The notes beneath the pieces were generated by a model that saw only the letters and a program-made list of their open reading frames with translations, was not told the DNA's origin and did no database searches. Below are positions 28,072 to 50,180 of a stretch of 64,000 bases of DNA, in pieces. Numbering within the stretch: position 1 is the first letter of the stretch; each line of letters opens with the position of its first letter. The stretch is taken from NCBI RefSeq assembly GCF_008710285.1, contig NZ_VYQF01000005.1, forward strand, positions 124,001 through 188,000, given 5' to 3'. Source of the stretch: Ginsengibacter hankyongi. GTDB lineage: Bacteria; Bacteroidota; Bacteroidia; Chitinophagales; Chitinophagaceae. The translations under genes and the position numbers were made by a program.

Positions 28072-29004
28072 TTACCAGGTCCTTTTACTCATGATCTCAT
28101 CGAGCTTTGCTTTGGTCATCTTTCCCAATTCGGGATGTTGACCTAACCATTTAAGAAAATTTTCTTTGATGTCATCGGTCCATTGGCTATCGATTTGTCC
28201 TGTTGTATATTTTGCCGACTTCACCATTTCAAAACCAAACTTATCTTTCAATGTAACAAACTCGGAAGTGCTTACAACTTGTTCTGCAAGATGTGCAGGA
28301 ATAAATAACACGCCTTCTCTGTTTGCAATAACCAAATCACCCGGCAACACTATTGCATGCCCAATACGGATTGGAGTGTTAAGTCCCATTAACACCATTC
28401 CTTCAAGAAACGAAGGATCAAAATCACGCACAAAAGCATTAAATCCTTTAATTTCAGATAAGCCATCGAGGTCACGAGCGGAGCCGTTAAAAATAACTCC
28501 GTTACCTGACTTTGCATAGATCGAATTCCCGAGGGTGCTACCTATGAGTGTTCCACCATTAATTTTGCCAAAGCCATCAGCTACGTATACATCACCTTTC
28601 AAAAGAATATCTATTGGCCAGGAGTTAGTATTGCCTTTTCTGCCTTGTTGCAAGCCACGTTCCTTAATGCTTTTTTCAACATCAGGCCTCGAAGGCAGAA
28701 ACATTGCGGTGACTGCCCGGCCTATAACAGGAACGGTATCATTTACCATCTTCCAGCCAGCTTCAAATTGGTTGGTGTAACCTAAATTTTTTAATACTGT
28801 CCATGCATCATCTATACCAATATTAGCTGCCCGTACTAACAAATCATCCGGCACTTTCGGGCGGCCGTCGGTAAATCTTTCACCTTTCCATTCTGATGTA
28901 AGCAAAATTAATTCATCGCGTGGGATCATTTGCGCATAAACGTTAGCTTTTTGGAAAAAGCATAAAATAAGCAGTGCGGTAACAATTCTTTTAATTTTCA
29001 TCAT
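28072..29004 (-). CDS. RraA-like aldolase family protein with signal peptide
   Basis: The fold is that of RraA and the class II HMG/CHA aldolases, which cleave 4-hydroxy-2-oxo acids to pyruvate or decarboxylate oxaloacetate. The metal/substrate motif is visible as LIGSTLGNSIYAKSG followed by VIFNGSARDLDG, including Arg177 and Asp178. Unlike cytoplasmic relatives it has a Sec signal peptide (residues 1-25, ending VYAQ), so it is periplasmic. About 310 aa, longer than RraA (about 160) because of N- and C-terminal additions. It is the last gene of the island. Aldolase activity on a 2-keto-3-deoxy acid is my inference. Confidence 0.85.
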   Translation of the reverse strand: MMKIKRIVTALLILCFFQKANVYAQMIPRDELILLTSEWKGERFTDGRPKVPDDLLVRAANIGIDDAWTVLKNLGYTNQFEAGWKMVNDTVPVIGRAVTAMFLPSRPDVEKSIKERGLQQGRKGNTNSWPIDILLKGDVYVADGFGKINGGTLIGSTLGNSIYAKSGNGVIFNGSARDLDGLSEIKGFNAFVRDFDPSFLEGMVLMGLNTPIRIGHAIVLPGDLVIANREGVLFIPAHLAEQVVSTSEFVTLKDKFGFEMVKSAKYTTGQIDSQWTDDIKENFLKWLGQHPELGKMTKAKLDEIMSKRTW

Positions 29005-29026
29005 GCTGATTTTGATACATATTTTT

Positions 29027-29048
29027 AATAGCGATGATCATCGCTATT
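29027..29048. repeat. Perfect 22-bp palindrome before rraA-like gene
   Basis: AATAGCGATGA followed by its exact reverse complement lies 23 bp before the RraA-like start and 30 bp after the amidohydrolase stop. With a minimal loop it would form a 9-bp hairpin. No T-tract follows on the minus strand, so an operator or an intercistronic RNA hairpin is more likely than a terminator. Confidence 0.6.
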
Positions 29049-29077
29049 CGGAAATTTAAGTGCCCGTCATTTCAAAC

Positions 29078-30877
29078 CTAGGGCACTCTTACTTTAATCA
29101 CAATCTTTTTTATTACATCATAGCCATTAACCTTAATGGCGGGACGATGCATTTCCTGTGGAGAAAATATAAAGAAGGTGTTGGGATCTGCATCATAATA
29201 GTCGCCTCCTTCATTGGTGAAATTTTCGTTATCGGTTGTATTGGAATAAGGAACAACTAGCACTCCCCGAATATCTGCACTTGGAGCAACGCCCATTTGC
29301 GCTTTACCTTTTATTACATATTGCAGGTCATTGAAATTTCTATGGGCTTCCCATTTAACATCTTCAATATTTTTTGTTGGTCCTTCTGAAACGGTCGCCG
29401 TAACATTTCCGGAATCAATCACATAAACTCCCGGTGCAAGATTGGCGAGATCCTTTGTTTTCAAAAATGTAAACGCCTCAATCCACCAGGTACTGTCTTT
29501 TCGATATTGCCTGAAAAATTCCTGTTGATTAATACTCTTACTTGGTGTAAGTTTTAAACCGTTCTTTGATTGGATGGTGTTGTACCAGTCGGAAAAATTT
29601 TCAGCGGGATTTGGTTTAAGCGGAATAAGACGAATGGGAGGATTTATTGGGTTGGCAATGCCGTTTAAATCGTAAACAATTCTGCCATCCCGGATGGTCA
29701 TTTCACATTCCAGTTTCTTATCAGTTTCGACTTTGTAGCCGGTGTAATCAAAAAGGCCGAATTTACCTTTCCTGATGTTCAGGATCGCAACATCTGCTCC
29801 TGAGCCAACCGATAGATTACCCAATTCTTCATGATTAATTTCTTTAGCAGGATTCCAGGTGCTTGCGGTGATGACACTTTTAAGATCCATACCTATTGCT
29901 AAAAATTTAGACATGGTAGTAAGCATATCTTTCATCGCCGCATTCATACTACCTACGTGTAAATCTGTGCTGATAGAATTAGGATAAAATCCTTCTTTAA
30001 TGGCAGGAATTGCTTGTGAGTAAGAGAAACTTATTCCACCATATCCCACATCGAAAACAATTCCCTTATTCCGGGCCTCGAGAACAAATGGTTTAATTTT
30101 GCTAGTTAAAGTATCCAGGATAAATTCCCTACCGGGTATTTGAGCAAAGCAATGGGTAAAGATATCTCCGGGGCGAAGGTGATTCAAAAATAATTCTTCT
30201 ATTGAAAGCGGTGGTCTGCTTCCGCCAAAATCTACCATCACCGGAATGCCGCCAGCAAGGTTACCCGCTTCTACAGCCCTGTCTGCAGGAGCCCAATCCC
30301 AGCCTTCGTAATGAGCGAGTTTAAATCCCACAATGATATTTTTATATTGTCTCGCAACCATTGCAGACATTTTTGGATCCATATCATTCTCATTTTGTTC
30401 ATAACCGCCACGCATACCTTCACCCACAATGTTTAAAAATGCGAGTACACGGGTTTGGGATTGATCAATGGTTTGTGCCTTAAAAATGGGGAATGTTCTC
30501 CAACCCGAACTGCCGGCATCAACAATGGTTGTAACCCCATTACGAAAGGTAAATCCATCTGGTTGTATGGCAGCGTTTCCATTTTCATATTGTTGATTTG
30601 GTTCCGTACCCCAAAAATCGTGGGTGTGAATGTCTATCAATCCCGGAGTTACATACATGCCCTTTGCATCTACCACCTGGGCAGCATTATTTGTATTGAT
30701 ATTTTTTGCTACTTTAACGATTTTGCCACTATCAATAGCAATATCCATTACCTGATCGATATTGTTTTTTGGATCCATAACATGGCCTCCCTTAATAACG
30801 ATACTATATGTTTGTGAAAGAGCCGGGCTTGATGCAAGGCATAGAGAACCTATTAGAATCAGGAATATTTTTTTCAT
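29078..30877 (-). CDS. Amidohydrolase (EF_0837-like) fused to YhcH/NanQ-like domain
   Basis: The signal peptide covers residues 1-21 (ends ALSQ). The amidohydrolase/dihydroorotase-like domain covers about residues 22-410 with metal ligands His84 and His86 (DIHTHDF), the FKLAHYEGWDW lysine segment, FTHCFAQ and the DLHVGS loop. A separate domain (about 426-599) matches YhcH/YjgK/YiaL (NanQ anomerase) proteins: WEAHRNFNDLQYVIKG with His512, YYDADPNTFFIFSP, and MHRPAIKV with His577. I know of no common fusion of these two; YhcH-type proteins act on sugars such as sialic acid. The gene lies between the RraA-like gene and SelA-like enzyme 1. Confidence 0.88.
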   Translation of the reverse strand: MKKIFLILIGSLCLASSPALSQTYSIVIKGGHVMDPKNNIDQVMDIAIDSGKIVKVAKNINTNNAAQVVDAKGMYVTPGLIDIHTHDFWGTEPNQQYENGNAAIQPDGFTFRNGVTTIVDAGSSGWRTFPIFKAQTIDQSQTRVLAFLNIVGEGMRGGYEQNENDMDPKMSAMVARQYKNIIVGFKLAHYEGWDWAPADRAVEAGNLAGGIPVMVDFGGSRPPLSIEELFLNHLRPGDIFTHCFAQIPGREFILDTLTSKIKPFVLEARNKGIVFDVGYGGISFSYSQAIPAIKEGFYPNSISTDLHVGSMNAAMKDMLTTMSKFLAIGMDLKSVITASTWNPAKEINHEELGNLSVGSGADVAILNIRKGKFGLFDYTGYKVETDKKLECEMTIRDGRIVYDLNGIANPINPPIRLIPLKPNPAENFSDWYNTIQSKNGLKLTPSKSINQQEFFRQYRKDSTWWIEAFTFLKTKDLANLAPGVYVIDSGNVTATVSEGPTKNIEDVKWEAHRNFNDLQYVIKGKAQMGVAPSADIRGVLVVPYSNTTDNENFTNEGGDYYDADPNTFFIFSPQEMHRPAIKVNGYDVIKKIVIKVRVP

Positions 30878-30939
30878 CTAAATTTTTTTATGTTTTACAG
30901 TTAAGACAATCATTTGTCTTTTTCCTTTTTTATAGAAAT

Positions 30940-32148
30940 CTAAACAGCCTTACTTAAGATTTCTTTCACCCGCCTGGCCACAATATTTACCTGGTCGGGT
31001 CTTAACAATACTACTCCGATACTTAATACTTTATCGTCGCCGTTAGCAACAATACTGGGCGTGCCATTTTTGAGTTGATCAAGAACATCTTTAGGCGTAG
31101 TCTTTACTTTCTGCTGGTCCCAGGTGAGATGCAGGCTGGGAAAAGCATTTGCCGGCCCAGGATCCACGTGAGTTTCACCTTTTACCGTGGCAATGGTTTC
31201 CACTTGTGATTTTATACGGCTAATACGGTCCAGCCAACCCTGCCATTCTTTTTTATGGTCGCGTTCCAGGTACGATTTTAATGCGGCATACATGCCAAAT
31301 ATTTCTTCTTTATTTACTTTCATAGGCCGGCCAATGGGGGCTTCGTGCGGACTGTGATTTAGTTTAGCTGCTTCGATCAGATCTTTTCTGCCAAATAATA
31401 AACCGGCACTCTGAGGGCCACGAATCATTTTACCTCCTGAAAATGTAACAAGATCAAATCCCATTTTTTGATATTTAAAGAGATTTTCAACAGGTGGTAC
31501 ATCAGCTGCAGCATCAATAAAACTGGGTATTTGATGTTTTTTACAAATTGCGATAAAATCTTCGCGAGTGACACTCGAACTCCCGGCTGCGTTGAAGAAT
31601 AAAGCTAATACGGTATTACTATTAAAGGCTTTTTCCATTTCGTCATTTCCTTCAACCTCGATAATCCTGGCGCCGGTAGTGGTAATCGCCTGGTCGAACA
31701 GATAGCGGTGGGTTTTTTGCATGATAACTTCTGGCCGCGGCCCTGGAAGATTGGGCAGCAGTTTTATTTTTTCCTGGTCTGTTCCTGTTATAGCAGCTGC
31801 AGTTCCAAGAAGCAATGCACATGCGGCTCCCGAAGTAACCATTGCTGCTTCGCATTGCAGCATTTCCGCCATTTTTGCCCCAACCTTATCCTGTAATTCA
31901 TACATGTTGGCAAAATCATGTGATGTGGAATTAATGGCTTCTAGTACCTCGGGCATCATTAGAGAACCAGACAAAAAAGTCATGGTTACTCCGGCATTAA
32001 TTACCCGGGTAACTCCCAACTCTTTAAATAAATCCCTTGTGGGAGCAGGTGGTTCTGCGAAAACTGATTCCGAAGCCAGTACGCCTCCCATTACTCCGCC
32101 GGAAAGGGGCAGTAAACTTAATCCTTTAAGAATATCTCTGCGTTTCAT
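30940..32148 (-). CDS. Tat-exported SelA-like PLP enzyme, copy 1
   Basis: A fold-type I PLP enzyme of the SelA-related/DgaE family (known members: D-glucosaminate-6-phosphate ammonia-lyase). Twin arginines in the leader (MKRRDILKGL) precede a hydrophobic region and a cut site after VFA (about residue 31). The PLP lysine is Lys240 in SGGKMIRGPQSAG. The ring-nitrogen Asp is in FIDAAADVPP. It lacks the N-terminal SelA domain, so it is not a selenocysteine synthase. Its mature domain is the most divergent of the three copies although its leader nearly equals copy 2. Confidence 0.88.
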   Translation of the reverse strand: MKRRDILKGLSLLPLSGGVMGGVLASESVFAEPPAPTRDLFKELGVTRVINAGVTMTFLSGSLMMPEVLEAINSTSHDFANMYELQDKVGAKMAEMLQCEAAMVTSGAACALLLGTAAAITGTDQEKIKLLPNLPGPRPEVIMQKTHRYLFDQAITTTGARIIEVEGNDEMEKAFNSNTVLALFFNAAGSSSVTREDFIAICKKHQIPSFIDAAADVPPVENLFKYQKMGFDLVTFSGGKMIRGPQSAGLLFGRKDLIEAAKLNHSPHEAPIGRPMKVNKEEIFGMYAALKSYLERDHKKEWQGWLDRISRIKSQVETIATVKGETHVDPGPANAFPSLHLTWDQQKVKTTPKDVLDQLKNGTPSIVANGDDKVLSIGVVLLRPDQVNIVARRVKEILSKAV

Positions 32149-32215: not shown

Positions 32216-33436
32216 CTAAGCAGAAGCTTTCAGGAGCTCCTCTTTAATTCTGGCTGCGACGATTTTCACCTGTTCGGGTCTCATCATCCAGGGCGAAACA
32301 GTAATAGAATTTTTACCGCCGCCATATGCTTCGATGGATGGGTTACCCTTTCTTAATTTCATTAATAGATCATCTCCGGAAAATTTGACTTTACCGGTGT
32401 CCCAGCTGATATTGAGCGTAGGAGTGTGGTCAGCAATCGGTGGAACATAAGTTTCAGTTTTAACACCGCTTACAGATTCGGCTGCTTTTGCAATCCGTGC
32501 AACACGATCTTCCCAATCTTTCCATTCTTTATCATGATCCTGGCTAATATATCTTTCCAATGCTACATACATACCAAGAATTTCTTCTTTATTTACTTTC
32601 ATGCCCCTTCCTATGGTACCAGAGTGTGGCGACGAATTTAAACAAGCTGCTGCAATGATGTCTTTTTTGCCCATCAAAACCCCGGCACTTTGTGGTCCCC
32701 GGATTGCTTTACCGCCCGACAGAGCAACAAAACTAAAACCCATCTCATTAAATTTCCAGAGATTTGATACCGGAGGAATATTCGCCGCAATATCAATGGA
32801 GGTTGGCAAATTATGTTTATTGGCTAATGCTATCCATTCTTCATGCATAATTTTCCCATTGGGTGCGCCGCTACCTAAGAAATGCATAGACGCAGTTTTT
32901 TCATTCACAGCTTTATCAACATCTTCCGGCGTTTCTACATAAACTAGTTTTGCTCCGCAATTAAGAAATGCATGATTATAATCAATTTGATGGCCTCTTT
33001 GAATGATAACTTCAGATTTCATTCCGGTGCCTTCGAGTTGAGGAAGTTGTGCCACTTTCTTTAAATCAGAGCCAGTGAGGATTCCAGCCATACCGAGCAT
33101 TAAAGCGGAAAATGCACCTGCTGATACCAGGGCTGCTTCAGAATGAACCATAGCGGCAATTTTTTCTCCCACTTTGTCTTGTAGTTCTTCCATCATGCAG
33201 AAATCTTTTGAACTATCATTAATAGCGTCCAGTACGTAATCGTGCATTAGTGAGCCGGACATAGCTGTTATCGTTCCTCGCGCATTTATAAAAGTGCGGA
33301 CCCCAAGTTCTTTAAACAAATCCCTATTTGGTGCAGGTGGTTCAGCGAAAACTGATTCCGAAGCGAGTATTCCGCCCATTACCCCACCTGAAAGGGGTAG
33401 TAAGCTTAATCCCTTAATAATATCTCTACGTTTCAT
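32216..33436 (-). CDS. Tat-exported SelA-like PLP enzyme, copy 2
   Basis: The second member of the family is 406 aa. The Tat leader MKRRDIIKGLSLLPLSGGVM is nearly identical to copy 1 (43 of 46 residues over the first 46), but the catalytic part resembles copy 3 (MHFL, VALSGGKAIRGPQS, IGRGMKVNKEE). The PLP lysine is Lys243, and Asp in SIDIAANIPP is the ring-nitrogen partner. The predicted product is a periplasmic lyase acting on an amino acid or amino sugar acid. It follows the PIG-L gene on the minus strand. Confidence 0.88.
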   Translation of the reverse strand: MKRRDIIKGLSLLPLSGGVMGGILASESVFAEPPAPNRDLFKELGVRTFINARGTITAMSGSLMHDYVLDAINDSSKDFCMMEELQDKVGEKIAAMVHSEAALVSAGAFSALMLGMAGILTGSDLKKVAQLPQLEGTGMKSEVIIQRGHQIDYNHAFLNCGAKLVYVETPEDVDKAVNEKTASMHFLGSGAPNGKIMHEEWIALANKHNLPTSIDIAANIPPVSNLWKFNEMGFSFVALSGGKAIRGPQSAGVLMGKKDIIAAACLNSSPHSGTIGRGMKVNKEEILGMYVALERYISQDHDKEWKDWEDRVARIAKAAESVSGVKTETYVPPIADHTPTLNISWDTGKVKFSGDDLLMKLRKGNPSIEAYGGGKNSITVSPWMMRPEQVKIVAARIKEELLKASA

Positions 33437-33583: not shown

Positions 33584-34618
33584 TTATATGGAAACCGCAT
33601 TTTTTTGTACATATCTATCAACTGAAGAAATAGTAGGCCCAATATAATGAAAGCGTTCTGCCCAGCCCAATCCATATTTTTCTCCAATTTTCCTGTCAGA
33701 TGGAATACCCCTCAGGTTCTCAGAATCTATATCCAATGCAAATTCCTTAATGTAATTAAAGTTGGCAGTCTGGTCATCATTACCGAGGATAGATAATTTC
33801 TTTCCATTAGCTGCCAGGGTTCGTCTCAGTTGGGCACCGGCACCACCTGCTAAACCCTGGTTTGTACAAGCAACATTAACCTCTACCTTTTTATCTATGA
33901 ATTTACTGATATCAACTACCCGGTTTACAAGTTGAGGTCCCCTGGCAAAATAATACATTTCTTTTACGGTATGAGGTTTTACAACCTCTAATTGTTCTGT
34001 ATAATCGGTACCCATGCCTGACATCCAGCGGGCAGCTTCAACGGCCTTAGCTGTTATATAATGATCGGGATTTTCTTCATATTGTCCCCAAGGATCATAA
34101 CAGATCAACGTATCTACCTGAAGTAGCCTGAACAAAAAAATAAGGCGACATTTAATATCCTGTATATTATATTCGTCCATCCTATGGTTGTTATAATTTA
34201 AACTGTATGCTTTTTTAAGTCCTAAAGCTTTTGCCACTGCATCATTTTCCTTTTCATTATTAAAAACCCGCTCCCCCATGGTCGCACCACCGCCTGCGGC
34301 GTCATCATTAGAGGTTCTGATCAAATACCCGGTATATCCTTCATAAATAAGTTTTGCCACCGTACCCGCAGCATAATATGCAATATCATCACAATGAGGT
34401 TGTATTACCGCTAGTACTTTGCCGTTGTGAGGCCGGCCTTCCGACAATCTTTCTATTACAACATCATCATCACCATCGGGAGAACTTTCCAGTTTATGGA
34501 TCTTTTGATCTGATAAGCTCAAATTGACTTTCTGATTTGAAAATCCCATTGCTGCGTAAGCGGCAGGTACAAGAGCCCCTGCAACTATATTCTTCGAAAT
34601 AAAATTTCGCCTTTTCAT
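33584..34618 (-). CDS. Tat-exported PIG-L family deacetylase
   Basis: A LmbE/PIG-L zinc hydrolase that removes acyl groups from N-acetylglucosamine-type sugars. The Tat leader is strong: MKRRNFISKNIVAGALVPAA (RRxFIxK), with cut site near AYA. The zinc motif VIQPHCDDIAYY (His75, Asp77, Asp78) is near residue 72. It has YDPWGQYEENPDHYITAKAV with the third ligand. At 344 aa it has a C-terminal extension beyond the core. In this operon it could free an amino group for the PLP enzymes. That role is inferred from context. Confidence 0.9.
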   Translation of the reverse strand: MKRRNFISKNIVAGALVPAAYAAMGFSNQKVNLSLSDQKIHKLESSPDGDDDVVIERLSEGRPHNGKVLAVIQPHCDDIAYYAAGTVAKLIYEGYTGYLIRTSNDDAAGGGATMGERVFNNEKENDAVAKALGLKKAYSLNYNNHRMDEYNIQDIKCRLIFLFRLLQVDTLICYDPWGQYEENPDHYITAKAVEAARWMSGMGTDYTEQLEVVKPHTVKEMYYFARGPQLVNRVVDISKFIDKKVEVNVACTNQGLAGGAGAQLRRTLAANGKKLSILGNDDQTANFNYIKEFALDIDSENLRGIPSDRKIGEKYGLGWAERFHYIGPTISSVDRYVQKNAVSI

Positions 34619-34660
34619 GTTTAAACTATTTTTACGTTTATGTATAATTTAAAAGTAGAT

Positions 34661-34753
34661 TTATACGTTTACCCCCCGTGCAAGCACATCCCCTAACGCC
34701 CCACCCGTAATGGGCAAAATGATTAATCCTTTAATTACGTCCAGGCGTTTCAT
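34661..34753 (-). pseudogene. Isolated remnant of a SelA-like Tat leader
   Basis: A 30-codon frame reads MKRLDVIKGLIILPITGGAL and continues GDVLARGVNV before a stop. It aligns with the leaders of the SelA-like proteins (MKRRDIIKGLSLLPLSGGVM), but the second arginine is Leu and no catalytic part follows. It lies between RidA and PIG-L. It is best explained as the start of a deleted fourth paralogue, less likely as a translated small peptide. Confidence 0.6.
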
Positions 34754-34792: not shown

Positions 34793-35257
34793 TTAAACAT
34801 ACGCAATGCAATCCATCTCTACCAATGAATTGCCGGGCACACCACCCTTGGCAACGGCAACGGTTGTACGAACCGGGGGGTTCTTTCCGAAACGGCCTTT
34901 ATAAACTTCATTCATTCCCTGGTAGTCTGCTATATCATTGAGGAACACACTTACTTTTAAGACTTTTTCCATTGACGAGCCGGCTTTAATTAACTCCTTT
35001 TCTAATTCTTTTAAAACTATTTCGGTGTGTGCTTTAATTTCAAAGGGTTCAACATGTGCACCTTTGCCAGCAATATATACGATATCCCCATGTCTTGTAG
35101 AACCTGAGAATAAAGGTACATCCTGGAAATCTGTTACATTATTAACTTGTTTCTGTTCACCGGTAATGCCCTTCGCTTTTGCCGCAAAGCCAAGACCTAC
35201 CACTGCAGTTACTGAAGCCAATAACTTCTTAATTAATGATCTTCTTTCTGTTTGCAT
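34793..35257 (-). CDS. Tat-exported RidA/YjgF family protein
   Basis: RidA proteins hydrolyse 2-aminoacrylate and related enamines/imines to the keto acid and ammonia. The leader has twin arginines (MQTERRSLIKKLLASVTAVV) and a cleavage near AKA, so it is predicted periplasmic, unlike typical RidA. Conserved residues are the Arg of VRTTVAVAKG (Arg130) and the Glu of SLVEMDCIAYV (Glu147). At 154 aa it is one RidA domain plus leader. Its position beside PLP enzymes that would make imine intermediates suggests it acts on their products. Confidence 0.92.
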   Translation of the reverse strand: MQTERRSLIKKLLASVTAVVGLGFAAKAKGITGEQKQVNNVTDFQDVPLFSGSTRHGDIVYIAGKGAHVEPFEIKAHTEIVLKELEKELIKAGSSMEKVLKVSVFLNDIADYQGMNEVYKGRFGKNPPVRTTVAVAKGGVPGNSLVEMDCIAYV

Positions 35258-35441: not shown

Positions 35442-36566
35442 TTATTTAGAAAGATTGTCAATATTTAATTCTCCTTCTTCATCTACAGACAACAAATGAT
35501 CCACTCCCGGGTAAGAGCCCTTAATCAAAAACTGGTATTCGTCGGCATAAAGCTTAATCTCAAAATCTTTTTCGTTTAATGAAGGACCATCCTTATACAT
35601 CTTTTTTAACTGCTTTAAGTTATTCGAATATTTGCCGTTTACTCTTTTAAATTCCTGTTGTAAATAATAATATTTCCACAGAATTAATTTCAATTTCTCT
35701 GTTTTCTCAGAAAGAAATCCTTTCGGAGATAATTGATCAGAAAATTGAACATATCCCCATCTTTCCGGGCAATGTAAATTCACGATTCCCTGGGGAGACC
35801 ATACGTTATAATGTTCGGGCAGTGGTTTGCCCGTATTAATATCTTTTCGCCGATGATATGACCCATTTAGGGTATCAATGTCCCACTTTACTCTTGAAAA
35901 ATTCATACGCCAGGTTGTTCCTATACCTGGCGGCTGATCACCACTCAGGTTAAGAGATTTAAATGGTACTGCCAATTCTATACTCCAGCCTTGATCCGTA
36001 TCATTAGGATTGTTAATTGTACCATTTAGTTGTACGGCCTTCTTCAAACCCTTTAAATCCCAACTGGTTAAATTTTTGCCGCCATTACGATAAGGCTTTG
36101 GCATAAATAAATCCCATACCGTTCCGTAGGCATTTATTTGAAATTCAAAATAGTTAAAGTTAGTTCCGGATGGATCGATAAACATTTCGAATGCATTGTC
36201 CTGGAAAACCGGGCTGTCATGCTCGGTTAATGAAGCCCATAAGTTGGTTTCATCCAAGCTAACAAATAAATATAAATAATCATCGTCCCATAACATTTTG
36301 CAATGCGACTTTATTAAAGGGTTGCTGTCGGCGCCACTTTTAATATCCGTAAAAAATTCCGTCCAGGGGGCTTTGCTCCAATCCGGCTCATCATCTTTCC
36401 CGTCTATTGTCATTTGCCCGGTCGTTCTCAATACAGTGTATTGCAATGGCACTTGTAATAGCCTCTCAAAATCTACCTTGCTTATTTGCGCATCGACCCT
36501 TTTAAAAAAAAGAGATGCGAATAGAGCTGAAAAAATAAGTACACCTGTTTTTATTCTCAAGTACAT
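35442..36566 (-). CDS. Secreted CBM9-like carbohydrate-binding protein
   Basis: Signal peptide (residues 1-26, ends VDAQ). The body matches carbohydrate-binding family 9-like domains common in Bacteroidota: TIDGKDDEPDWSKAPWTEF, the CKMLWDDDYLYLFVSLDE strand pair, FQDNAFEMFIDPSG, and GWSIELAVPF. No catalytic residues were recognised. The C-terminal 90 residues (after HCPERWGYVQF) are helical and charged. It sits between RidA and the sugar dehydrogenase gene and points to a carbohydrate ligand. Confidence 0.85.
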   Translation of the reverse strand: MYLRIKTGVLIFSALFASLFFKRVDAQISKVDFERLLQVPLQYTVLRTTGQMTIDGKDDEPDWSKAPWTEFFTDIKSGADSNPLIKSHCKMLWDDDYLYLFVSLDETNLWASLTEHDSPVFQDNAFEMFIDPSGTNFNYFEFQINAYGTVWDLFMPKPYRNGGKNLTSWDLKGLKKAVQLNGTINNPNDTDQGWSIELAVPFKSLNLSGDQPPGIGTTWRMNFSRVKWDIDTLNGSYHRRKDINTGKPLPEHYNVWSPQGIVNLHCPERWGYVQFSDQLSPKGFLSEKTEKLKLILWKYYYLQQEFKRVNGKYSNNLKQLKKMYKDGPSLNEKDFEIKLYADEYQFLIKGSYPGVDHLLSVDEEGELNIDNLSK

Positions 36567-39675: not shown

Positions 39676-40908
39676 TTAGGAGGATGCAACAGAAAGTTCC
39701 TCTTTGATTCTCCGCGCAACAATCTTTTCCTCCCCCTTTTTCAACATGAAAACTGTGAGGCTAATGCTGTTATCTTCATCACCCCAGGAAATGACCTCGA
39801 TAGAAGGATTTCCTGTGCGCAATTTATCTCCTAAATTTTCGCGTGTTGTCCTTATTATATTCTTATCCCAAGCAATTCTTAACTTAGGGGTGTGGTTTGC
39901 AATGGGTGGAACGCTTATTTCAGTTGTAACACCTTTGATATTTTTCACGGCATCATTAATATAGCCTATGTTATCTTCCCACATCTTCCATTCTTTATCA
40001 TGATCCTGATTGATATAGCTATCTAATGCCGCATACATGCCCAGCATTTCTTCTTTATTCACTTTCATACCACGACCTATGGTAACTCCATTGGGAGAAT
40101 CATTCAGGCGGGCTGCTTCAATGATATTTTTCTTGCCCATTAGTACACCAGTACTTTGCGGGCCACGGATGGCTTTCCCGCCGGACAAAGCAACAAAACT
40201 AAAACCCATATCATTGTACTTCCATAGATTCGATACTGGTGGCACATCAGCGGCGATATCAATGGTAGCGGGCAGGTTATGTTTCTTTGCAAGTTGCAAC
40301 CATTGTTCATGCATAATTTTTCCTTCCATTGCGTTGCAATTCAAGAAATGCATTGACGCAGTTTTTTCATTTACAGCTCTTTCAACATCATCAGCCGTTT
40401 CAACGGAAATTATAGTGACCCCGGTATTATATAGAGCTTGTTCGTAACCATCAAAATGGCCTTTCTGTAATAACACTTCTGATTTAATACCAGCTTCTTC
40501 CAGGCGATGGGGCAGCCGCTTTATTTTCTGCTGATCCGTTCCAGTTAGAATGCCTGCCATTCCCAATGTCAGGGCGGAGAAAGCGCCAGCCGTTACCATG
40601 GCACCTTCCGCATGGACCATTTGAGCAATTTTTTCACCTACTTTATCCTGAACTTCGTTCAGCATGCAAAATTCTTTGGAGCTATATTCTATTGCATCCA
40701 CTACCTCGTCATGCATCAGGGATGCAGTCATTGTGGTGTAAGTTCCTGCAGCATTAATGAAAGAGCGGATGCCAAGTTCTTTCAAGAGGTTTCTTTTAGG
40801 TACCCTCGAAGGAGCAGCCAGCAACGACTGGCCAGGAAGAATGCTTCCTAAAAACGTGCCGCCTAAAGGAAGGAGACCTAATCCTTTAATAATTTCTCTA
40901 CGCTTCAT
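39676..40908 (-). CDS. Tat-exported SelA-like PLP enzyme, copy 3
   Basis: The third intact SelA-like/DgaE-family enzyme, 410 aa. Its leader MKRREIIKGLGLLPLGGTFL has twin arginines, with a cut near LLAAPS. The PLP lysine is Lys245 in LSGGKAIRGPQS, and TIDIAADVPPV holds the pyridine-pairing Asp. The catalytic part is closest to copy 2 and to the broken copy at 48762. It sits directly downstream of SusD, first of the enzyme genes in transcription order. Confidence 0.88.
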   Translation of the reverse strand: MKRREIIKGLGLLPLGGTFLGSILPGQSLLAAPSRVPKRNLLKELGIRSFINAAGTYTTMTASLMHDEVVDAIEYSSKEFCMLNEVQDKVGEKIAQMVHAEGAMVTAGAFSALTLGMAGILTGTDQQKIKRLPHRLEEAGIKSEVLLQKGHFDGYEQALYNTGVTIISVETADDVERAVNEKTASMHFLNCNAMEGKIMHEQWLQLAKKHNLPATIDIAADVPPVSNLWKYNDMGFSFVALSGGKAIRGPQSTGVLMGKKNIIEAARLNDSPNGVTIGRGMKVNKEEMLGMYAALDSYINQDHDKEWKMWEDNIGYINDAVKNIKGVTTEISVPPIANHTPKLRIAWDKNIIRTTRENLGDKLRTGNPSIEVISWGDEDNSISLTVFMLKKGEEKIVARRIKEELSVASS

Positions 40909-42551: not shown

Positions 42552-45500
42552 TTAAAATTTAATATTCAGATTTAGTCCTATGTCCCGGGTCCTTGGTTCA
42601 CCGGTACCTGATGTACCAGTTGTGTTACTAACAGTTTGCCCGAATTCAGGATCTAAACCTGCCTCTTTTACCCTCTTATCGCTGTATAAAATGGCAAGAT
42701 TGCGGGCCACGAGTGCTATAGATGCAGATTGAATTTTAACCAGCCTCATTTTATTTACAGGGAGATTATAACTTAAGATAAGACTACGAAGTTTTACAAA
42801 ATCTGTTTTAAAAACATTCACACTTCCTGCATAATTATTACCACGGTTATTATAATAAGTATCTAAGAGCGTAACGTCCCATAACTTACTAAAAGAATTT
42901 CCATTTTGATCGACCCCTGTTACTTGTAAACCATTTTCTCTACCGGGCAAAGTTTCCTTCGTTAAACCAAATCTTGAAGCATATTGCCATAGATTGCTAT
43001 ATCCGACAGATCCAAATTTTCCATCAAGTAGTATATTCAGAGAAAGTCTTTTATACCTGAACTCATTGGTAAGTCCCATTATGTAAGGAGGATTGGCAAC
43101 GCCCAAATTTTGTCGTACGCTTTGCTCATAACCGCTTACGCTATTATAAACCTGTATGCCCTTTGCATTCTTTAAAAACACAGGCGCCTGGAGTGTTGCG
43201 TAAGGCAATCCTACCTGCGATATAACATTTACGCCACCTGCGATGCCAGATCCTATAGTAAGTGTAGTTAATCCGGGAGCAAGACTTAGAATCTGGTTCT
43301 TATTCCAGGCCATGTTGTAACTCACATTCCACCTGAAATTGGGAGTTATTAACGGGGTGCCCGTCAAGAGCAATTCAATTCCCCTGTTTCTCAGTGTGCC
43401 TACGTTTTGATTCCCCGCGAGGTACCCCGATGCGTTCGAAATATCAGGTTGAAGGATGTTATTTGTCGTCATACGATCATAATAAGTCGCATCGATTCCC
43501 AGCCGGTTATTGAAAAATTGTATTTCAAAACCTCCTTCGGAAGTAGTTACCGTCAATGGCCGCAAGCCTGGATTAGGTAACCTGTTCGATGCATTCAGAA
43601 CTGGTAATCCGTTAAAGCCTCCTGGTGTCAGGTTATAAGTTTGATTGATAGCATAAGGATCAACCGTTGCATTACCTACCTGGGCCCATGAGCCACGTAG
43701 TTTAAGGAAGCTAATTGCTTCGGGAAGCCTTAATGCATCAGATAATATTACGCTTCCGCCAATTGAAGGATAGAAGATAGCGTTGTTCCCGGGATTTAAG
43801 GTCGAAAACCAATCCTTTCTTCCGGTAAATGAAAGGTAGATTATTCTTTTAAAATCAAGGTCTGCAGAACCGAACAGTGAGTTTGTACCAAAATGACTTT
43901 CTGATTTATTTGGAACGTCCAGTGTCCCCAGGTTGGTATAGCTGATAAAATCCGGGATAATAAAATCTCTACCCGTTATACTACTAGAAAGCGAGTTGTG
44001 TCTTTCGCGGTTTACACCTACAAAGGCATAGACACTAAAGTCCTTTAAGAATTTTGTAGAATAATTTATGGTTGCACGAGCATTGCTTATGTCAAATTGA
44101 TCTTCATAGGAATTATAGTATCCTTTAGGAGTAAATGCTGTTCCAATGGGTGTGTAATTAGAACGGTTAGAAAATAAGAAGTCTTTAGAAATTATTCCTT
44201 TTACAAAAAGATTAGGAAAGAAATTTACCTGTACACTTCCTGAACCAATGAAGCGGTTTCTTATATCATCGTTTCCAGTTCTATTAACGACAAACCATGG
44301 ATTGGGAGCCGCCGGTACCGGGTTCCACTGTATTTCATCTCCGTTATCATTATAACCAGGGGCTAATGATCTTATATCTACAGTATTTCCCAGCAGGTAG
44401 GTGGCCCAGCTCGGATTCAATTCGGCGTAACCAACATTTGGACGATTATGACCTTTTTCGTAATTATATTGGGCATTGCCTTCAATAGTTATAAAATCAT
44501 TTTTGCCAAGGTGCGATGAAACACTTAAGTTAGAAGTTTTCCGGTCGAATGTTGAATTCGGTGTTTGTGCCTTTGCATCCAAATCGGACATTGACAAGCG
44601 GAAATTCAGTGCACTGCTTCCCCCGTAAAATGCGATCGTATTGGTGAAGTTAGTGCTGGGGCGATAGAAGTTGTTAACATTGTCCTTTACTTTAACGGGT
44701 GAATACGGACGTTCAACTCCGTCGAACTGAACCACCATGGAACCATCTACTTTGGCTCCGTAAGATAAACGGCCTGCACTGAGGGCAGCGGCCTGCGTAG
44801 CTGGTTTTACACCGTCATTACCTGACCCATATTCATACTGATAATTTGGGTAAGAAGAAGGTGTTCCGGTTACATAATTTGTATTGAAGTCAACACCAAT
44901 GCCTTTTTGTGCTCTTCCAGATTTTGTTGTAATTAATATTACGCCATTAGCTGCCTGGCTTCCGTATAGTGCAGCCGCAGCACCACTTTTAAGGACAGTA
45001 ATTGTTTCAATATCGTCAGGATTTATACTGGATATCCCATCCCCAGTGTCATAGTTAAATCCAGTGCTACTGGCAGATGCGCCGCCGTTTCCGTTGTAGA
45101 TTGGAGAACCATTTACAACATACAGTGGCTGGTTATTAGCGGAACCGTTGATAGCCCCAACTCCACGAATAACTATTCTGCTTGATCCTCCCGGACCTGA
45201 TGCAATTTGTGTAGCATCAACCCCTGCAATCTTTCCGGTAAGGGCACTTGCAACATTATTTTCGCGGGCCTCGGTAAACTCGGAGCCCTTCACTTCAGCG
45301 GATGAGTACACCAAACCTCTCTTGCTCTTCTTAATTCCCAAAGCAGTAACAACTACTTCATTTAATTCCCGTGATTCTTCCTTGAGAGTTGCATTTATGA
45401 TCGTTTGATTATTCACAGCAATCTCCTGAGTGATAAACCCAATAAACGAAAATATCAGTGTGCCATTTTCCGGTGCATCAATGGCATAATTGCCGGATTT

Positions 45501-46088
45501 ATCAGTGGAGGTTCCAATCGTGCTTCCTTTTATGGTGATACTTACTCCTGCTAAAGGATTGCCTCTATCGTCGGTAACCTTTCCGGTAACGATATTAGCT
45601 GTGGTAAAGCTAGTACTAATGCCATAAGGAATCTTATAATCATTTAACTTCGAATACGAAATCAATTTATTCGAATGCATTATCAAAATCTGGTCCTTCA
45701 CCTGCCTGTAAGTCAGGGCGGTATTTGCCAGTGCAATCTTTAGGAAGGTCTCAACAGTTAATTTGGTGACGGGTAAATTCAAATTACGAATGCTTTCAAC
45801 CTCATCTTTCCGATACATGAAATGATACCCCGTGACCGCTTCAATTTTCTGAAATGCCTGTACAAGGGTTTCATTTTTAAGCCCAAGTGTTACTTCAACT
45901 TCATTAATCGGCTGGCTTTTAAGTGGAGTCGCAAAAAGTAATTGGGCAGATGTAGTAATCAATATGGTAGCAGTTACTATTCCAATGCGCATAATGTCTT
46001 TGATGATTGATTTTTCGCGGAAAAATTTTTTCTTAACGTTTGATTTGAAAAAATTATGGAATTCTTCAGTTAATGATGAAAGATTCAT
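42552..46088 (-). CDS. SusC/RagA TonB-linked receptor with STN domain
   Basis: The ATG at 46088 (MNLSSLTEEF) gives 1178 aa; the frame opens at 46175, but the extra 29 residues are not signal-like. After the signal/leader region, an STN domain (about 65-135) receives a FecR-type interaction (LGLKNETLVQAFQKIEAVTG). A CarboxypepD_reg domain (GKVTDDRGNPLAGVSITIKG), then VVVTALGIKKSKRGL and the plug follow, then the long 22-strand barrel. STN domains mark transducing receptors that signal through FecR to an ECF sigma; the fecR and sigma genes are just upstream. Confidence 0.95.
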   Translation of the reverse strand: MNLSSLTEEFHNFFKSNVKKKFFREKSIIKDIMRIGIVTATILITTSAQLLFATPLKSQPINEVEVTLGLKNETLVQAFQKIEAVTGYHFMYRKDEVESIRNLNLPVTKLTVETFLKIALANTALTYRQVKDQILIMHSNKLISYSKLNDYKIPYGISTSFTTANIVTGKVTDDRGNPLAGVSITIKGSTIGTSTDKSGNYAIDAPENGTLIFSFIGFITQEIAVNNQTIINATLKEESRELNEVVVTALGIKKSKRGLVYSSAEVKGSEFTEARENNVASALTGKIAGVDATQIASGPGGSSRIVIRGVGAINGSANNQPLYVVNGSPIYNGNGGASASSTGFNYDTGDGISSINPDDIETITVLKSGAAAALYGSQAANGVILITTKSGRAQKGIGVDFNTNYVTGTPSSYPNYQYEYGSGNDGVKPATQAAALSAGRLSYGAKVDGSMVVQFDGVERPYSPVKVKDNVNNFYRPSTNFTNTIAFYGGSSALNFRLSMSDLDAKAQTPNSTFDRKTSNLSVSSHLGKNDFITIEGNAQYNYEKGHNRPNVGYAELNPSWATYLLGNTVDIRSLAPGYNDNGDEIQWNPVPAAPNPWFVVNRTGNDDIRNRFIGSGSVQVNFFPNLFVKGIISKDFLFSNRSNYTPIGTAFTPKGYYNSYEDQFDISNARATINYSTKFLKDFSVYAFVGVNRERHNSLSSSITGRDFIIPDFISYTNLGTLDVPNKSESHFGTNSLFGSADLDFKRIIYLSFTGRKDWFSTLNPGNNAIFYPSIGGSVILSDALRLPEAISFLKLRGSWAQVGNATVDPYAINQTYNLTPGGFNGLPVLNASNRLPNPGLRPLTVTTSEGGFEIQFFNNRLGIDATYYDRMTTNNILQPDISNASGYLAGNQNVGTLRNRGIELLLTGTPLITPNFRWNVSYNMAWNKNQILSLAPGLTTLTIGSGIAGGVNVISQVGLPYATLQAPVFLKNAKGIQVYNSVSGYEQSVRQNLGVANPPYIMGLTNEFRYKRLSLNILLDGKFGSVGYSNLWQYASRFGLTKETLPGRENGLQVTGVDQNGNSFSKLWDVTLLDTYYNNRGNNYAGSVNVFKTDFVKLRSLILSYNLPVNKMRLVKIQSASIALVARNLAILYSDKRVKEAGLDPEFGQTVSNTTGTSGTGEPRTRDIGLNLNIKF

Positions 46089-46295
46089 AAATTTGGTATG
46101 TTTTAAGTTAATAAGGAACTCGTTTCGAGTGTATTTAAAACAGTGCATAGTCCCGATTGCAGTCGGTACTGGCAATATTGCCTCTGAAATAATTTTCAGA
46201 GGTTTTTTTTAAGTTTCATTCTAGTTTTATTGACCAGGAATTACTTTTTTTAAAGTAAAGTCGTTTTGTCATATTTAAGGTTTTTAGTAAATTAA

Positions 46296-47285
46296 TTATT
46301 TTTTAAGATTAATATTGATGGTAGATTTTTCCATATCATTTGTATAGGCAAGGCCATTAAAAAGGCAAATGCTGTTTAATATCTCTTCAAGTGTTTCTTT
46401 TTTTGAAAACGTGGTGGTAAATCGCAATGATTCAATTTCAGGGTCATTGATTATTATTTTAACGTCATAGCGATCCTCGATTATTTTTGCAGCCTCAGAC
46501 ATGGTAAGATTATCGATGAGTAAATCTTCTTTTTTCCAATTCAAATAGGTTTCATTTTTAACCGTCTGGATTACAGACTTTACTTTGGATTTCGCATAAG
46601 TTATTTGTTGGTTGGGGGTAATTATCCCGATTAATTTACTTTTATTGTTGACACTAACTCTTCCCCTCTTTACGGTTACGGTAATATTATCTTCTCCCGG
46701 CAACGCTTTAATATTAAAAGCAGTTCCTAATACTTTAGTTTCTAACTCGCCCGTATGCACTATAAACGGCCTCGATTTATTATGCATAATGTCAAAAAAT
46801 GCCTGGCCTTCAAGATATACCTCCCTTTTATCCTTACCGTCGAAAGTTGATGGGTAATTTAACTTGCTTCCCTGGCTCAAAATAACCCTGCTACCGTCAG
46901 GAAGGAAAATGACGCGATTCTTTATATGTTCTATAGTTGCTACTTTTTCAGGTGCGCCCATATTTTTTTCAACAGAATGGTTGTTTAAAAAATATAAGCC
47001 TGAAATAAACACGAGTGTAGTAATCACGGCTGCAGCAAGTTTCACATACCTGTGGTTAATGAAACGTACATTCTTGCCCACCTGCCCTCCACTGTAAATA
47101 TTATTCCAGATGCCATTCCTTAAATTGTTTCTAATTGCAGTTCTTTCATCACGTCCTAAGTCATCCATTACGTCAGGCTCATTTTGAAACAAGTTGTAAT
47201 ATTTTTCTACAAATACCTGCTCCTCTTTTGTTGTTTTGCCTTTTTGGTATTTATGCAACAATTTTAAAAAATAATGTTTGTCCAT
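46296..47285 (-). CDS. FecR-type anti-sigma factor
   Basis: This 329-aa regulator has an N-terminal cytoplasmic domain (anti-sigma), one membrane span (about 81-100, VKLAAAVITTLVFISGLYFL), a FecR domain (GSRVILSQGSKLNYP, YLEGQAFFDI, HTGELETKVLGTAF) and a C-terminal DUF4974 domain that would touch the STN of SusC. It is between the sigma factor and susC on the minus strand. Confidence 0.92.
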   Translation of the reverse strand: MDKHYFLKLLHKYQKGKTTKEEQVFVEKYYNLFQNEPDVMDDLGRDERTAIRNNLRNGIWNNIYSGGQVGKNVRFINHRYVKLAAAVITTLVFISGLYFLNNHSVEKNMGAPEKVATIEHIKNRVIFLPDGSRVILSQGSKLNYPSTFDGKDKREVYLEGQAFFDIMHNKSRPFIVHTGELETKVLGTAFNIKALPGEDNITVTVKRGRVSVNNKSKLIGIITPNQQITYAKSKVKSVIQTVKNETYLNWKKEDLLIDNLTMSEAAKIIEDRYDVKIIINDPEIESLRFTTTFSKKETLEEILNSICLFNGLAYTNDMEKSTININLKK

Positions 47286-47894: not shown

Positions 47895-48009
47895 TAGTTA
47901 TCTTTTAGCTAATTTGGATACTAAAAATTGCTGATCTTTATTTTTCCAAATTATTATTTAGGGTATTAAATTTCGTTCAAATTAATATCTGAGACTGTTT
48001 GCTTATAGA

Positions 48010-48063: not shown

Positions 48064-48657
48064 TTACGATGTGGTTATTAGGATTATTGCTATTGTGAGA
48101 ATTCGTAATAAAGAAACTCTTAAAGTTTCTATTGCTTTACCAAGTTGGTTTTGAACTGTTTTTCTAGTAATTCCCAATTTCATGGAAATAACTTTTGTAG
48201 ACAAATCTTCCTGGTAACGAAGACGAAAAATAATTTGCCTTTTGGGAGGCAAGGATTCCATGAGTTCTTCATAAGACTTGAAAAATTCTTTCCAAAGCAA
48301 ATTCGCATCAGCTTGGGAATTTTTTTCAGGAATATTTTCTAAAATATCAAAAAAGGGATGGAAGTGCTTTTGTTTGGAAAGTGATTTAATCACATTATTT
48401 CGGATTGCCACATGTAAATAAGCTGGAAAATTTTCAATCATATGCGTTTGCCTGTTCAACCATATTTTAGTAAATATTTCCTGCACGATATCTTTTGCGT
48501 CTTCACCATTTTTTAAGCGCTTATAGGCAGCCGAATAAGCCTTTTCCCAGTATTTTTCGAATAAGAGATTAAAAGCATGTGTACTTCCGTCTTTAACTTT
48601 TTCGAGCAATAAAGAATCATCAATCGTGAGTGGTTCAGGTTGTCTCATTGCAAGCAT
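48064..48657 (-). CDS. ECF RNA polymerase sigma factor, FecI-like
   Basis: A sigma-70 family ECF factor of 197 aa. Region 2 is residues about 27-70 (FNLLFEKYWEKAYSAAYKRL, DAKDIVQEIFTKIW), region 4 is about 130-182 (LPPKRQIIFRLRYQEDLSTK, ITRKTVQNQLGKAI). The C-terminus ends in an unusual hydrophobic run (VSLLRILTIAIILITTS). It would be held by FecR and freed by SusC signalling to switch on the island. The usual sigma-fecR-susC-susD order is interrupted by tatA. Confidence 0.92.
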   Translation of the reverse strand: MLAMRQPEPLTIDDSLLLEKVKDGSTHAFNLLFEKYWEKAYSAAYKRLKNGEDAKDIVQEIFTKIWLNRQTHMIENFPAYLHVAIRNNVIKSLSKQKHFHPFFDILENIPEKNSQADANLLWKEFFKSYEELMESLPPKRQIIFRLRYQEDLSTKVISMKLGITRKTVQNQLGKAIETLRVSLLRILTIAIILITTS

Positions 48658-48761
48658 TTATTAACGCAATGTAAAAAAAGTTTCGCTAAACATGCATTTA
48701 ATTTAAAATCCCTTTTGGAAAAGATGCCCGACTGGGCTTTGCCGATGTCAAAAAAATCATG

Positions 48762-49160
48762 TTATATTTCCATCAAAGAAGATTTGCTTAATACCTCCGA
48801 TTTAATACTGGCTTTTTCCGGGCGATGGGCAGGGCAGCTGTTTAACTTTCTGCTGATCCTTAACAGTAAGAATAACTGCCATTGTCAATATTAAACCGGA
48901 GAAAGCGCCAGCCGTCACCATGGCTCCCTCCGCGTGAACCATTTGTCCAATCTTTTCTCCAACCTTATCCTGCACTTCATTTAACATAAAAAATTCTTTA
49001 GCGCTATAATCTATCGCGTCCATTACCTCTTCGTTCATAAGAGAGGCTGTCATAGTGGTGTATGTTCCTGCGGCATTAATGAAAGCGCGATGCCAAGTTC
49101 TTCGAGAAGGTTCCTCCTGGGTTTTGATTTGGAAGGTTTGCGGGCCGTTGTTTCTATCGG
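48762..49160 (-). pseudogene. Truncated, frameshifted SelA-like gene
   Basis: The segment RRNLLEELGI (near 49100) is separated by a one-base deletion near 49085-49091 from the frame MTASLMNEEVMDAIDYSAKE that runs to a stop at 48802. A second shift then restores ASIKSEVLSKSS and stops at 48762. It aligns with copy 3 (same MTASLM, NEVQDKVGEKI, MVHAEGAMVTAGAFS), but the leader and all downstream parts, including the PLP lysine, are missing. It is a decayed fourth or fifth copy between the sigma and SMP-30 genes. Confidence 0.85.
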
Positions 49161-49244
49161 GATGGTGATGGAAATTAATATCAGTTCTTTATTAAAAGCG
49201 ATTATGCCTGACCGTTATAAACATTTTCAATAACGCGATTTCTT

Positions 49245-50180
49245 TTATTTTTTTCTTTGCATCCTCCATTCTCTGCCCGGCGTATCTACACGAAAAGTTT
49301 CAAGATTACCCATGTCCATTAATGTCACATAAACTCTACAACCATCCTCTCCCCCAAATGCCACATTCGTGGGGTTTTTCCCAAATAATTTTATTTCCTT
49401 TAATATATCTCCATTGGGGGAAACTTTTGCCACAACACCTTTTCCGATGCGGGCAATATATAAATTCCCTGCAGTATCGCAACGCATACCATCGCAACCA
49501 AAATCAGCGAATTCAAGTAATAAACTTTTATTGTTTAATTCGCCTTTAGGCGACAGATTATAAGACCAAACTTTTCGTCCTGCATTTACATATAGTTTTT
49601 TTTCATCAGGACTTACCTCTATTCCATTTGCAGGACCGTTTAGTGTATCTAATAAAGTGACACTTCCATGCCCGTCAATCCGCCAAATTCGGCCGGTGTT
49701 TAATTTAAAGTTTGGATCACTGGCATAAACACGGTTTTTGCTGTCAATGGCTATATCATTGGGCTGCGTCATCTTCGGTTCATGGGCAAAAACACTGATC
49801 TTTTTGGTTTTCATGTTAACCTTGAGCACATTGTGCTTTGTATAATCAGCAATCAACATATTACCATGGGTGTCAAACCTGATTCCATTTCCAACACTGC
49901 TATCCGGAAGATCAATAAATAATCCTGGATTTCCTGCGGTGTGTACAATTCCGATTGTACCCTCACGGGAAAAGTTTACCGCATAAACATTTCCGTGCTT
50001 GTCTACTGCAGGGCCTTCCACGCCATGAGTAAAACTGTTTGGGGGTGTAAATTCAGCTGATTTAAACAACGTATCTGACAAAACAAACTGCGCATTTGCA
50101 GACAGGCAAAATTGAACCTGGGATGAAAGTTGAATGACAGCCAACGCCAAAATATAAAACGCAATTCGTTTTTGTTTCAC
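49245..50180 (-). CDS. SMP-30/gluconolactonase-like secreted protein
   Basis: A six-bladed beta-propeller of the SMP-30/gluconolactonase/LRE family, which hydrolyses sugar lactones with a metal ion. Signal peptide residues 1-31 (ends ANAQ). Blades show GVEGPAVDKHGNVYAVNF, RFDTHGNMLIADYTKHNVL, MTQPNDIAIDSKNRVYASDP, and ANGIEVSPDEKKLYVNAG with the metal-ligand residues. It would open the lactone made by a PQQ sugar dehydrogenase. It is the first gene of the island in transcription order, 50 bp upstream of the broken SelA-like copy. Confidence 0.88.
   Translation of the reverse strand: MKQKRIAFYILALAVIQLSSQVQFCLSANAQFVLSDTLFKSAEFTPPNSFTHGVEGPAVDKHGNVYAVNFSREGTIGIVHTAGNPGLFIDLPDSSVGNGIRFDTHGNMLIADYTKHNVLKVNMKTKKISVFAHEPKMTQPNDIAIDSKNRVYASDPNFKLNTGRIWRIDGHGSVTLLDTLNGPANGIEVSPDEKKLYVNAGRKVWSYNLSPKGELNNKSLLLEFADFGCDGMRCDTAGNLYIARIGKGVVAKVSPNGDILKEIKLFGKNPTNVAFGGEDGCRVYVTLMDMGNLETFRVDTPGREWRMQRKK

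Follow-up and report, generated by a model that had tools for sequence, protein, structure and literature searches.

The 64,000-nucleotide stretch of Ginsengibacter hankyongi contig NZ_VYQF01000005.1 analysed here (the window) carries, at 28072-50180, a cluster of 15 predicted genes that we interpret as a candidate periplasmic pathway for amino sugars built around SelA-like pyridoxal phosphate (PLP) enzymes. All the genes share one strand, as the first-pass annotation of this DNA had stated, here the - strand, and the few + strand open reading frames (ORFs) that overlap them are shadows of - strand genes. Transcription runs from the gene for an SMP-30/gluconolactonase-type protein (49245..50180) through those for an extracytoplasmic function (ECF) sigma factor (48064..48657), a FecR anti-sigma factor (46296..47285), a SusC/RagA TonB-dependent receptor of uncertain start codon (42552..46175) and a SusD-like lipoprotein (40975..42525), which bears out the SusC/SusD pair with sigma/FecR control described previously. 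These are followed by SelA-like enzyme 1 (39676..40908), a PRK09237-type amidohydrolase (amidohydrolase 1, 38359..39618), a GSDH-type protein, weakly matching pyrroloquinoline quinone (PQQ) sugar dehydrogenases, with a C-terminal cytochrome c (36572..38320), a CBM9-like protein (35442..36566), a RidA-type enamine/imine deaminase (34793..35257), a PIG-L deacetylase (33584..34618), SelA-like enzymes 2 (32216..33436) and 3 (30940..32148), a second PRK09237-type amidohydrolase fused to a C-terminal DUF386/YhcH domain (29078..30877) and an RraA-like protein (28072..29004). The DUF386 tail was absent from the earlier list of genes.

All 11 enzymes or binding proteins of the cluster (28072-40908 and 49245) carry an export leader according to a simple hydrophobicity rule, in agreement with the earlier statement that nearly every enzyme has an export signal; this rule is not SignalP, and it also flags integral membrane proteins such as SBF and major facilitator superfamily (MFS) carriers. 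Five of the leaders resemble those of twin-arginine translocation (Tat-like), namely those of the three SelA-like enzymes, PIG-L and RidA, and the SMP-30, GSDH-cytochrome c, CBM9-like, RraA-like and two amidohydrolase proteins have Sec-like leaders. Across the related loci described below, leaders were called on 168/170 SelA-like proteins, 162/163 amidohydrolases, 93/93 RidA1 proteins, 39/40 RraA proteins and 68/73 GSDH-cytochrome c proteins, as opposed to 0/7 DgoK proteins, 1/6 2-keto-3-deoxy-6-phosphogluconate (KDPG) aldolases and 0/36 sigma factors. Since the rule flags about half of the unclassified ORFs (425/804), the contrast between families matters more than any single number. With leaders on the SelA-like, amidohydrolase, RidA and RraA families and not on DgoK or KDPG aldolase, the change of compartment seems to fall at the carrier. 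The enzymes of the window, like those of many relatives, appear to be exported; their known counterparts work in the cytoplasm.

The gene set of the window is not a product of chance, as much of it recurs in 101 non-redundant loci. The first-pass annotation had proposed looking for the exported set in other Bacteroidota, and it is found there with its leaders in place. A contig scan with the SelA-like alignment yielded at least 595 pattern matches, at least 567 of them relatives, and 78 loci were kept. Loci were analysed from 39 of the 44 same-family genomes with a match (G662, G665, G712, G784 and G795 were left out, as was a second locus of G431). Of the 128 stretches annotated, among them the window and contig C28 of the same genome, 126 have a SelA-like gene. 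Grouping at 97% SelA identity, with each group represented by its longest unit and a minimum length of 12 kb, left 101 of 114 non-redundant groups. Genes were called with an ORF script and start codons are predicted; the number of SelA-like proteins varies (102, 170, 171 or 166) with length and truncation filters, and stretches L040 and L169 apparently represent a single contig.

The loci belong to Bacteroidota, including Chitinophagaceae, Dyadobacter, Spirosoma, Larkinella, Cyclobacterium and Daejeonella, with one in Balneolota (Fodinibius). Counting the own genome, the SelA-like enzyme is present at E<=1e-60 in 44/394 genomes of the same family and in 8/395 genomes drawn from the class; at E<=1e-3 it was detected in 13/149 relatives. 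The 101 loci contain an amidohydrolase in 90 cases, any RidA in 78, a GSDH/quinoprotein dehydrogenase in 69, SusC in 44, RraA in 38, a lactonase in 37, SBF in 36, SusD in 30, MFS in 9, GH20 in 5, DgoK with KDPG aldolase in 5 and PIG-L in 3. Dehydrogenase and lactonase co-occur (p=4e-7), the amidohydrolase gene lies directly 3' of the SelA-like gene in 101/171 instances, and RidA1 lies directly 5' of it in 60/171. A genome of the same genus (G005) has a compact single-copy run of SMP-30, GSDH-cytochrome c, CBM9, RidA, an enzyme of the SelA-like 3 type, amidohydrolase-DUF386, RraA and an MFS carrier, which suggests that PIG-L, SelA-like enzymes 1 and 2 and amidohydrolase 1 are probable additions in the window.

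The first-pass annotation had likened the SelA-like proteins to DgaE, and by the curated cut-offs they are not DgaE. The three window proteins score 129-141 and 167-188 bits, far short of the curated DgaE cut-offs (385 for TIGR01437); both DgaE and a true selenocysteine synthase were rejected as identities. The best solved fold for the AlphaFold2 (AF2) model of SelA-like enzyme 1 is DGL (7lc0; TM-score 0.78/0.87). In the alignment, the PLP lysine is present in 166/166 SelA-like proteins; among the phosphate-site positions of DGL, Arg301 is found in 0/166 and Arg332 in 6/166, with position 346 in a gap and unreliably aligned, and His163 and His162 are found in 0/166 and 5/166, respectively. According to the available text of PMC9529869, Arg301, Arg332 and Arg346 of DGL were placed by the phosphate in manual docking, and His163 protonates C3, the H163A variant keeping full activity and releasing the enamine. 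Lacking Arg301, the periplasmic SelA-like enzymes seem adapted to a 2-amino aldonate that is not phosphorylated, and without His163 they may, like H163A, release an enamine, leaving a job for the co-exported RidA. RidA had been put forward as a partner before, and its presence in 78/101 loci upholds this; the RidA1 Arg is present in 93/93 proteins by motif.

For deacylation, the earlier chain allowed either PIG-L or an amidohydrolase. Because PIG-L is found in only 3/101 loci, the amidohydrolase (90/101) is likelier to be the general deacylase, and PIG-L was rejected as the main one. The two window amidohydrolases pass the PRK09237 cut-off (451 and 440 bits vs 371) and miss that of EF_0837, so that of their previous description as EF_0837-type amidohydrolases only the second word is retained. 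The five metal ligands are kept in 157/160 amidohydrolases, both window copies included, and the HxH motif in 160/160 by alignment. Near full-length structure matches are 8je0, 2ogj, 2ics and 8wzy; we take 2ogj and 2ics to be Atu3266 and EF0837, presumably acting on acyl esters of D-hydroxy acids, for which a literature search gave no confirmation. Judging by the families to which they are assigned, the GSDH-type protein and the lactonase fit C1 oxidation of a sugar and opening of the resulting lactone. The presence of a GH20 hexosaminidase within the gene runs of two relatives (G076 and G081) points to N-acetylhexosamines.

We consider it moderately probable that the cluster serves a periplasmic conversion of an N-acetylhexosamine, such as N-acetylglucosamine (GlcNAc), N-acetylgalactosamine (GalNAc) or a related sugar, to 2-keto-3-deoxyhexonate before entry into the cytoplasm. 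The predicted activities, substrate, order of steps and import would be as follows. SusC and SusD would take up either the sugar itself or an oligosaccharide, C1 would be oxidised to the lactone by the GSDH/cytochrome c protein, SMP-30 would open the lactone to the N-acetyl aldonic acid, and the amidohydrolase would remove the acetate. The Tat-exported SelA-like enzyme would then act on the 2-amino aldonate, eliminating its C3 hydroxyl and releasing an enamine or imine, which the Tat-exported RidA would help to hydrolyse to ammonia and a 2-keto-3-deoxy acid, whose anomer may be set by DUF386. In the own genome, the keto acid would most likely be imported by an MFS carrier encoded on contig C28 and used by a 2-keto-3-deoxygluconate (KDG)-kinase-like protein and a KDPG aldolase encoded on the same contig; relatives that have an RraA with an intact D-x20-R-D motif and an SBF carrier may cleave the keto acid outside and import pyruvate. 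Compared with the chain drawn up in the first-pass annotation, the export, the co-occurrence and the order of oxidation, lactone opening, deacylation and ammonia loss are retained, the DgaE identity and PIG-L as main deacylase are not, and the RraA step is doubtful in this genome.

A number of observations weigh against this interpretation. The window protein matches GSDH weakly (30.7 bits vs a cut-off of 25), and PqqC was not found in a search that had no positive control. Among NCBIfam models, the MFS carriers match the D-galactonate transporter best, at 251-267 bits where the cut-off is 395, and the SBF carriers likewise fall below the cut-offs of their NCBIfam models. A His located elsewhere in neighbouring columns, in 31/166 SelA-like proteins, could donate the proton. 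RidA is absent from 7/7 units that contain DgoK though their SelA-like proteins are without His163, which indicates that RidA is not strictly tied to the loss of this residue. The own genome has NagB and GH20 genes and hence probably a standard route for GlcNAc, which would make the cluster an extra route or one for another amino sugar. A single substrate also does not account for three SelA-like enzymes and a pair of amidohydrolases. It should also be noted that the loci are related, so the p-values given here overstate independence, and that loci were cut at ~10 kb, which makes absences soft.

The alternative that fares best, although we regard it as unlikely, is that RraA goes on to split the keto acid into pyruvate and an aldehyde while it is still in the periplasm, with only the pyruvate imported by SBF. 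The first-pass annotation had likewise ended its chain with RraA-type aldol cleavage. RraA and SBF share a locus in 27/38 RraA loci (p=1.8e-8), and D-x20-R-D, which we take to be the motif of RraA class II pyruvate aldolases, has its Asp in 21/41 RraA proteins (R-D in 41/41) and is intact in a copy beside SBF on contig C30 of the own genome, where exported RraA also accompanies exported acid-sugar dehydratase-type genes. The window RraA, however, reads S-x20-R-D, with the R-D kept and Ser156 in place of the Asp 21 upstream, and the C28 copy also has Ser, which makes periplasmic aldol cleavage doubtful in this genome. After removal of near-identical loci, MFS occurs in 0/20 Asp-type vs 4/18 other RraA loci (p=0.041); contrary to expectation, the RraA residue does not sort cleanly with the carrier, as 12/18 non-Asp RraA loci carry SBF. 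The two carrier types never occur together (SBF in 36 loci, MFS in 9, both in 0/101; p=0.025). Of the earlier RraA step, the export of the protein is upheld; cleavage in this genome is weakened by the Ser, with genes for a carrier, a KDG-kinase-like protein and KDPG aldolase present on C28.

Import of the intact keto acid, the reading we prefer for the own genome, draws on the DUF386 tail and on contig C28. The tail scores 101.7 bits against Pfam DUF386 (cut-off 26.5) and 58.8 bits against the YhcH model NF040884 (cut-off 160). Among SelA-type stretches, the DUF386 fusion occurs only in the window, G005, L040 (the contig of L169) and L173, and the last three have it together with a C28-type MFS in the cluster; the MFS on C28 itself shares 78% identity with its counterpart in the sister cluster L040. 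The neighbours of the C28 carrier gene encode a stand-alone DUF386 protein (E=1.2e-12 to the tail in the window), RraA (Sec-like), a Tat-like UxuA (mannonate dehydratase family), an enolase-superfamily protein, a quinoprotein dehydrogenase, a PfkB-family (KDG-kinase-like) protein and a KDPG aldolase. Of these proteins, RraA and UxuA are flagged by the leader rule; the quinoprotein is not, nor is the enolase-superfamily protein, for which the predicted start may be incorrect. In NCBIfam, YhcH, a member of DUF386, goes by the name N-acetylneuraminate anomerase, and sialic acid is a 3-deoxy-2-keto acid, which suggests that DUF386, here below the YhcH cut-off, may prepare the keto acid for import. 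The DgoK and KDPG aldolase families act on 2-keto-3-deoxy acids or their phosphates, and the two occur together in 6/78 named loci, 4 of which have a full-length MFS. DgoK was rejected as the kinase of the own genome, where it has no match (the DgoK family was detected in 2/14 controls).

Further acid-sugar genes surround the other RraA copies of the own genome (G000). At ~112-132 kb of G000:C28 (L141 and L142) lies a uronate-type locus with UxaC-family, mannitol-dehydrogenase-family, PfkB kinase, KDPG aldolase and MFS genes, and it adjoins a second set of DUF386, MFS, quinoprotein dehydrogenase, RraA, UxuA and enolase-superfamily genes. Likewise, G000:C30 (L186, 7297-12392) carries genes for an FGGY kinase, SBF, RraA (Sec-like, intact D-x20-R-D) and a Tat-like enolase-superfamily protein, and its opposite strand encodes SusCD-like proteins and an IlvD/Edd dehydratase. 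Counting the window, there are three RraA loci in this genome, so that exported RraA accompanies three different predicted acid-sugar product sources. The occurrence of exported RraA, SBF or MFS, and DUF386 beside exported UxuA/enolase-superfamily genes hints at a wider periplasmic acid-sugar metabolism.

A second alternative concerns the chemistry of the SelA-like proteins, which could be O2-dependent PLP oxidases/decarboxylases resembling Cap15, or racemases, with other amino acids as substrates, in a cluster for the breakdown of a modified glycan or of an acylated D-amino acid instead of an N-acetylhexosamine. Cap15, an O2-dependent PLP enzyme, is the second-best fold and profile match of the SelA-like enzyme, which also counts against the ammonia-lyase role proposed above. 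In addition, the SelA-like proteins miss the DGL-family cut-offs, and the presumed action of this amidohydrolase group on acyl esters of D-hydroxy acids would fit such a cluster. Such a function would, however, leave the sugar dehydrogenase, lactonase, GH20, DgoK, KDPG aldolase and hexonate-like carriers unexplained, and we judge it quite improbable. The idea of a loose polysaccharide-utilisation island of independently useful exported enzymes with no single pathway could appeal to the gaps of 587 and 778 bp that set apart SMP-30 and sigma (because of which the window set is probably not one transcript), to gene remnants and extra paralogues, and to a gene order that differs among relatives, but in view of the compact single-copy run of G005 and the strong co-occurrence across loci we give it hardly any credence.

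Several known systems bear comparison with the conversion to 2-keto-3-deoxyhexonate that we favor. In the cytoplasmic branch of D-galactonate use that involves DgoK and 2-keto-3-deoxy-6-phosphogalactonate (KDPGal) aldolase, the keto acid comes from galactonate dehydratase. Some clusters resemble it in having DgoK, a KDPG-family aldolase and a galactonate-like MFS, but DgoK is absent from the own genome. The Ong pathway for oxidised chitin in Pseudoalteromonas prydzensis is closer: in the available text of PMC9537276, OngB, a D-aminoacylase-like protein, deacetylates N-acetylglucosaminate, the fold-type III PLP enzyme OngC deaminates the product to KDG, which KdgK phosphorylates, growth requires the RidA gene OngD, whose role is called unknown, and OngB and OngC are predicted to be cytoplasmic. 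The two systems would share deacetylation and PLP-dependent deamination to a 2-keto-3-deoxy acid, and they have in common a RidA partner gene, of which the window has one. They differ in that the SelA-like model matches DGL, Cap15 and SelA rather than a fold-type III enzyme, and in that Ong, as presented there, starts from acids made by lytic polysaccharide monooxygenase (LPMO), whereas the cluster would start from a sugar dehydrogenase. In addition, the window amidohydrolase is not an OngB-type deacetylase, as PpOngB (9kb1) matches it over residues 28-89 only (E=1.5e-6).

The Dga route, as far as the available text of PMC9529869 describes it, offers a PLP enzyme of the same fold that takes ammonia off a 2-amino aldonate to give a 2-keto-3-deoxy acid; DGL acts on the 6-phosphate made during uptake by the phosphotransferase system (PTS). 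Unlike DGL, the SelA-like proteins have no Arg301, no His163, a Tat-like leader and usually a RidA partner. A GlcNAc route predicted for Natrarchaeobius haloarchaea, which the accessible part of PMC12343721 presents as its authors' hypothesis, likewise includes deacetylation, a glucose dehydrogenase that turns glucosamine into glucosaminate, a DGL homologue that forms the 2-keto-3-deoxy acid, and a RutC-family (Rid-related) gene in the clusters. It differs in placing a kinase step ahead of the ammonia-lyase and in using CE4/CE14 deacetylases, and that part of the article describes no export. Glycosaminoglycan use by haloarchaea is the subject of PMC13260240, the available text of which contains no amino-sugar acid deamination. 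The logic of the cluster matches the cytoplasmic Ong and Dga routes and the predicted haloarchaeal one, while its SelA-like proteins fall outside DgaE and OngC and the window amidohydrolase outside OngB. Among the matches listed from Creative Commons-licensed PubMed Central literature, none described a periplasmic route for amino-sugar acids based on these genes, which is weak evidence of absence. To the earlier remark that no such pathway is described it may be added that two cytoplasmic counterparts, the Ong pathway and the predicted haloarchaeal route, are in print.

We tentatively extend this interpretation, with distinctly less confidence than in the conversion itself, to a complete periplasmic amino-sugar route in Bacteroidota that would combine a PLP ammonia-lyase with a Tat-exported RidA. 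Ammonia and acetate would be kept outside, the keto acid, or pyruvate where RraA is intact, would be imported, and protonation would have passed to RidA once the proton donor of DGL was lost. If true, this would give RidA a defined catabolic substrate, the role of OngD still being called unknown, and many bacteria of soil and water would remove nitrogen in the periplasm by a PLP chemistry that is usually cytoplasmic. It would also provide a sharp test for the role of RidA in amino-sugar acid pathways, which the Ong paper leaves open, and it predicts functions for widespread exported families that carry generic names.

Some smaller features of the window and its relatives complete the description. 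Promoter and terminator scans of 28000-47999 gave counts at shuffle level (57 vs 55.9 and 14 vs 17.7, respectively), and a tRNA scan found none. A remnant of a fourth SelA-like gene lies at ~48789..49115 on the - strand (79% DNA identity to 40471-40794), and a - strand stretch at 34679..34753 is similar, at 60% identity, to the N-terminal 25 residues of a SelA-like protein; the latter directly follows RidA, at the site of the SelA gene in many relatives. These remnants suggest duplication and loss in the cluster. The seven units with DgoK (L058, L064, L065, L075, L078, L092 and L098) contain none of RidA, RraA or SBF, although absences from L064, which is only 3.2 kb long, mean little. A long SelA-like subfamily of 517-555 aa, comprising L024:734-2368 and 13 other proteins, has ~130 extra C-terminal residues, in which Pfam finds no domain in the L024 protein. 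Sulfatase genes in four clusters (L086, L092, L098 and L101) hint at sulfated amino sugars, and the L098 sulfatase, the sole copy checked, has an SGSH-type C-terminal domain. Finally, a SelA-type locus encodes a 7-bladed lactonase fused to a YjgF/RidA domain (L038:1446-3002), in which two of the proposed steps are physically joined.

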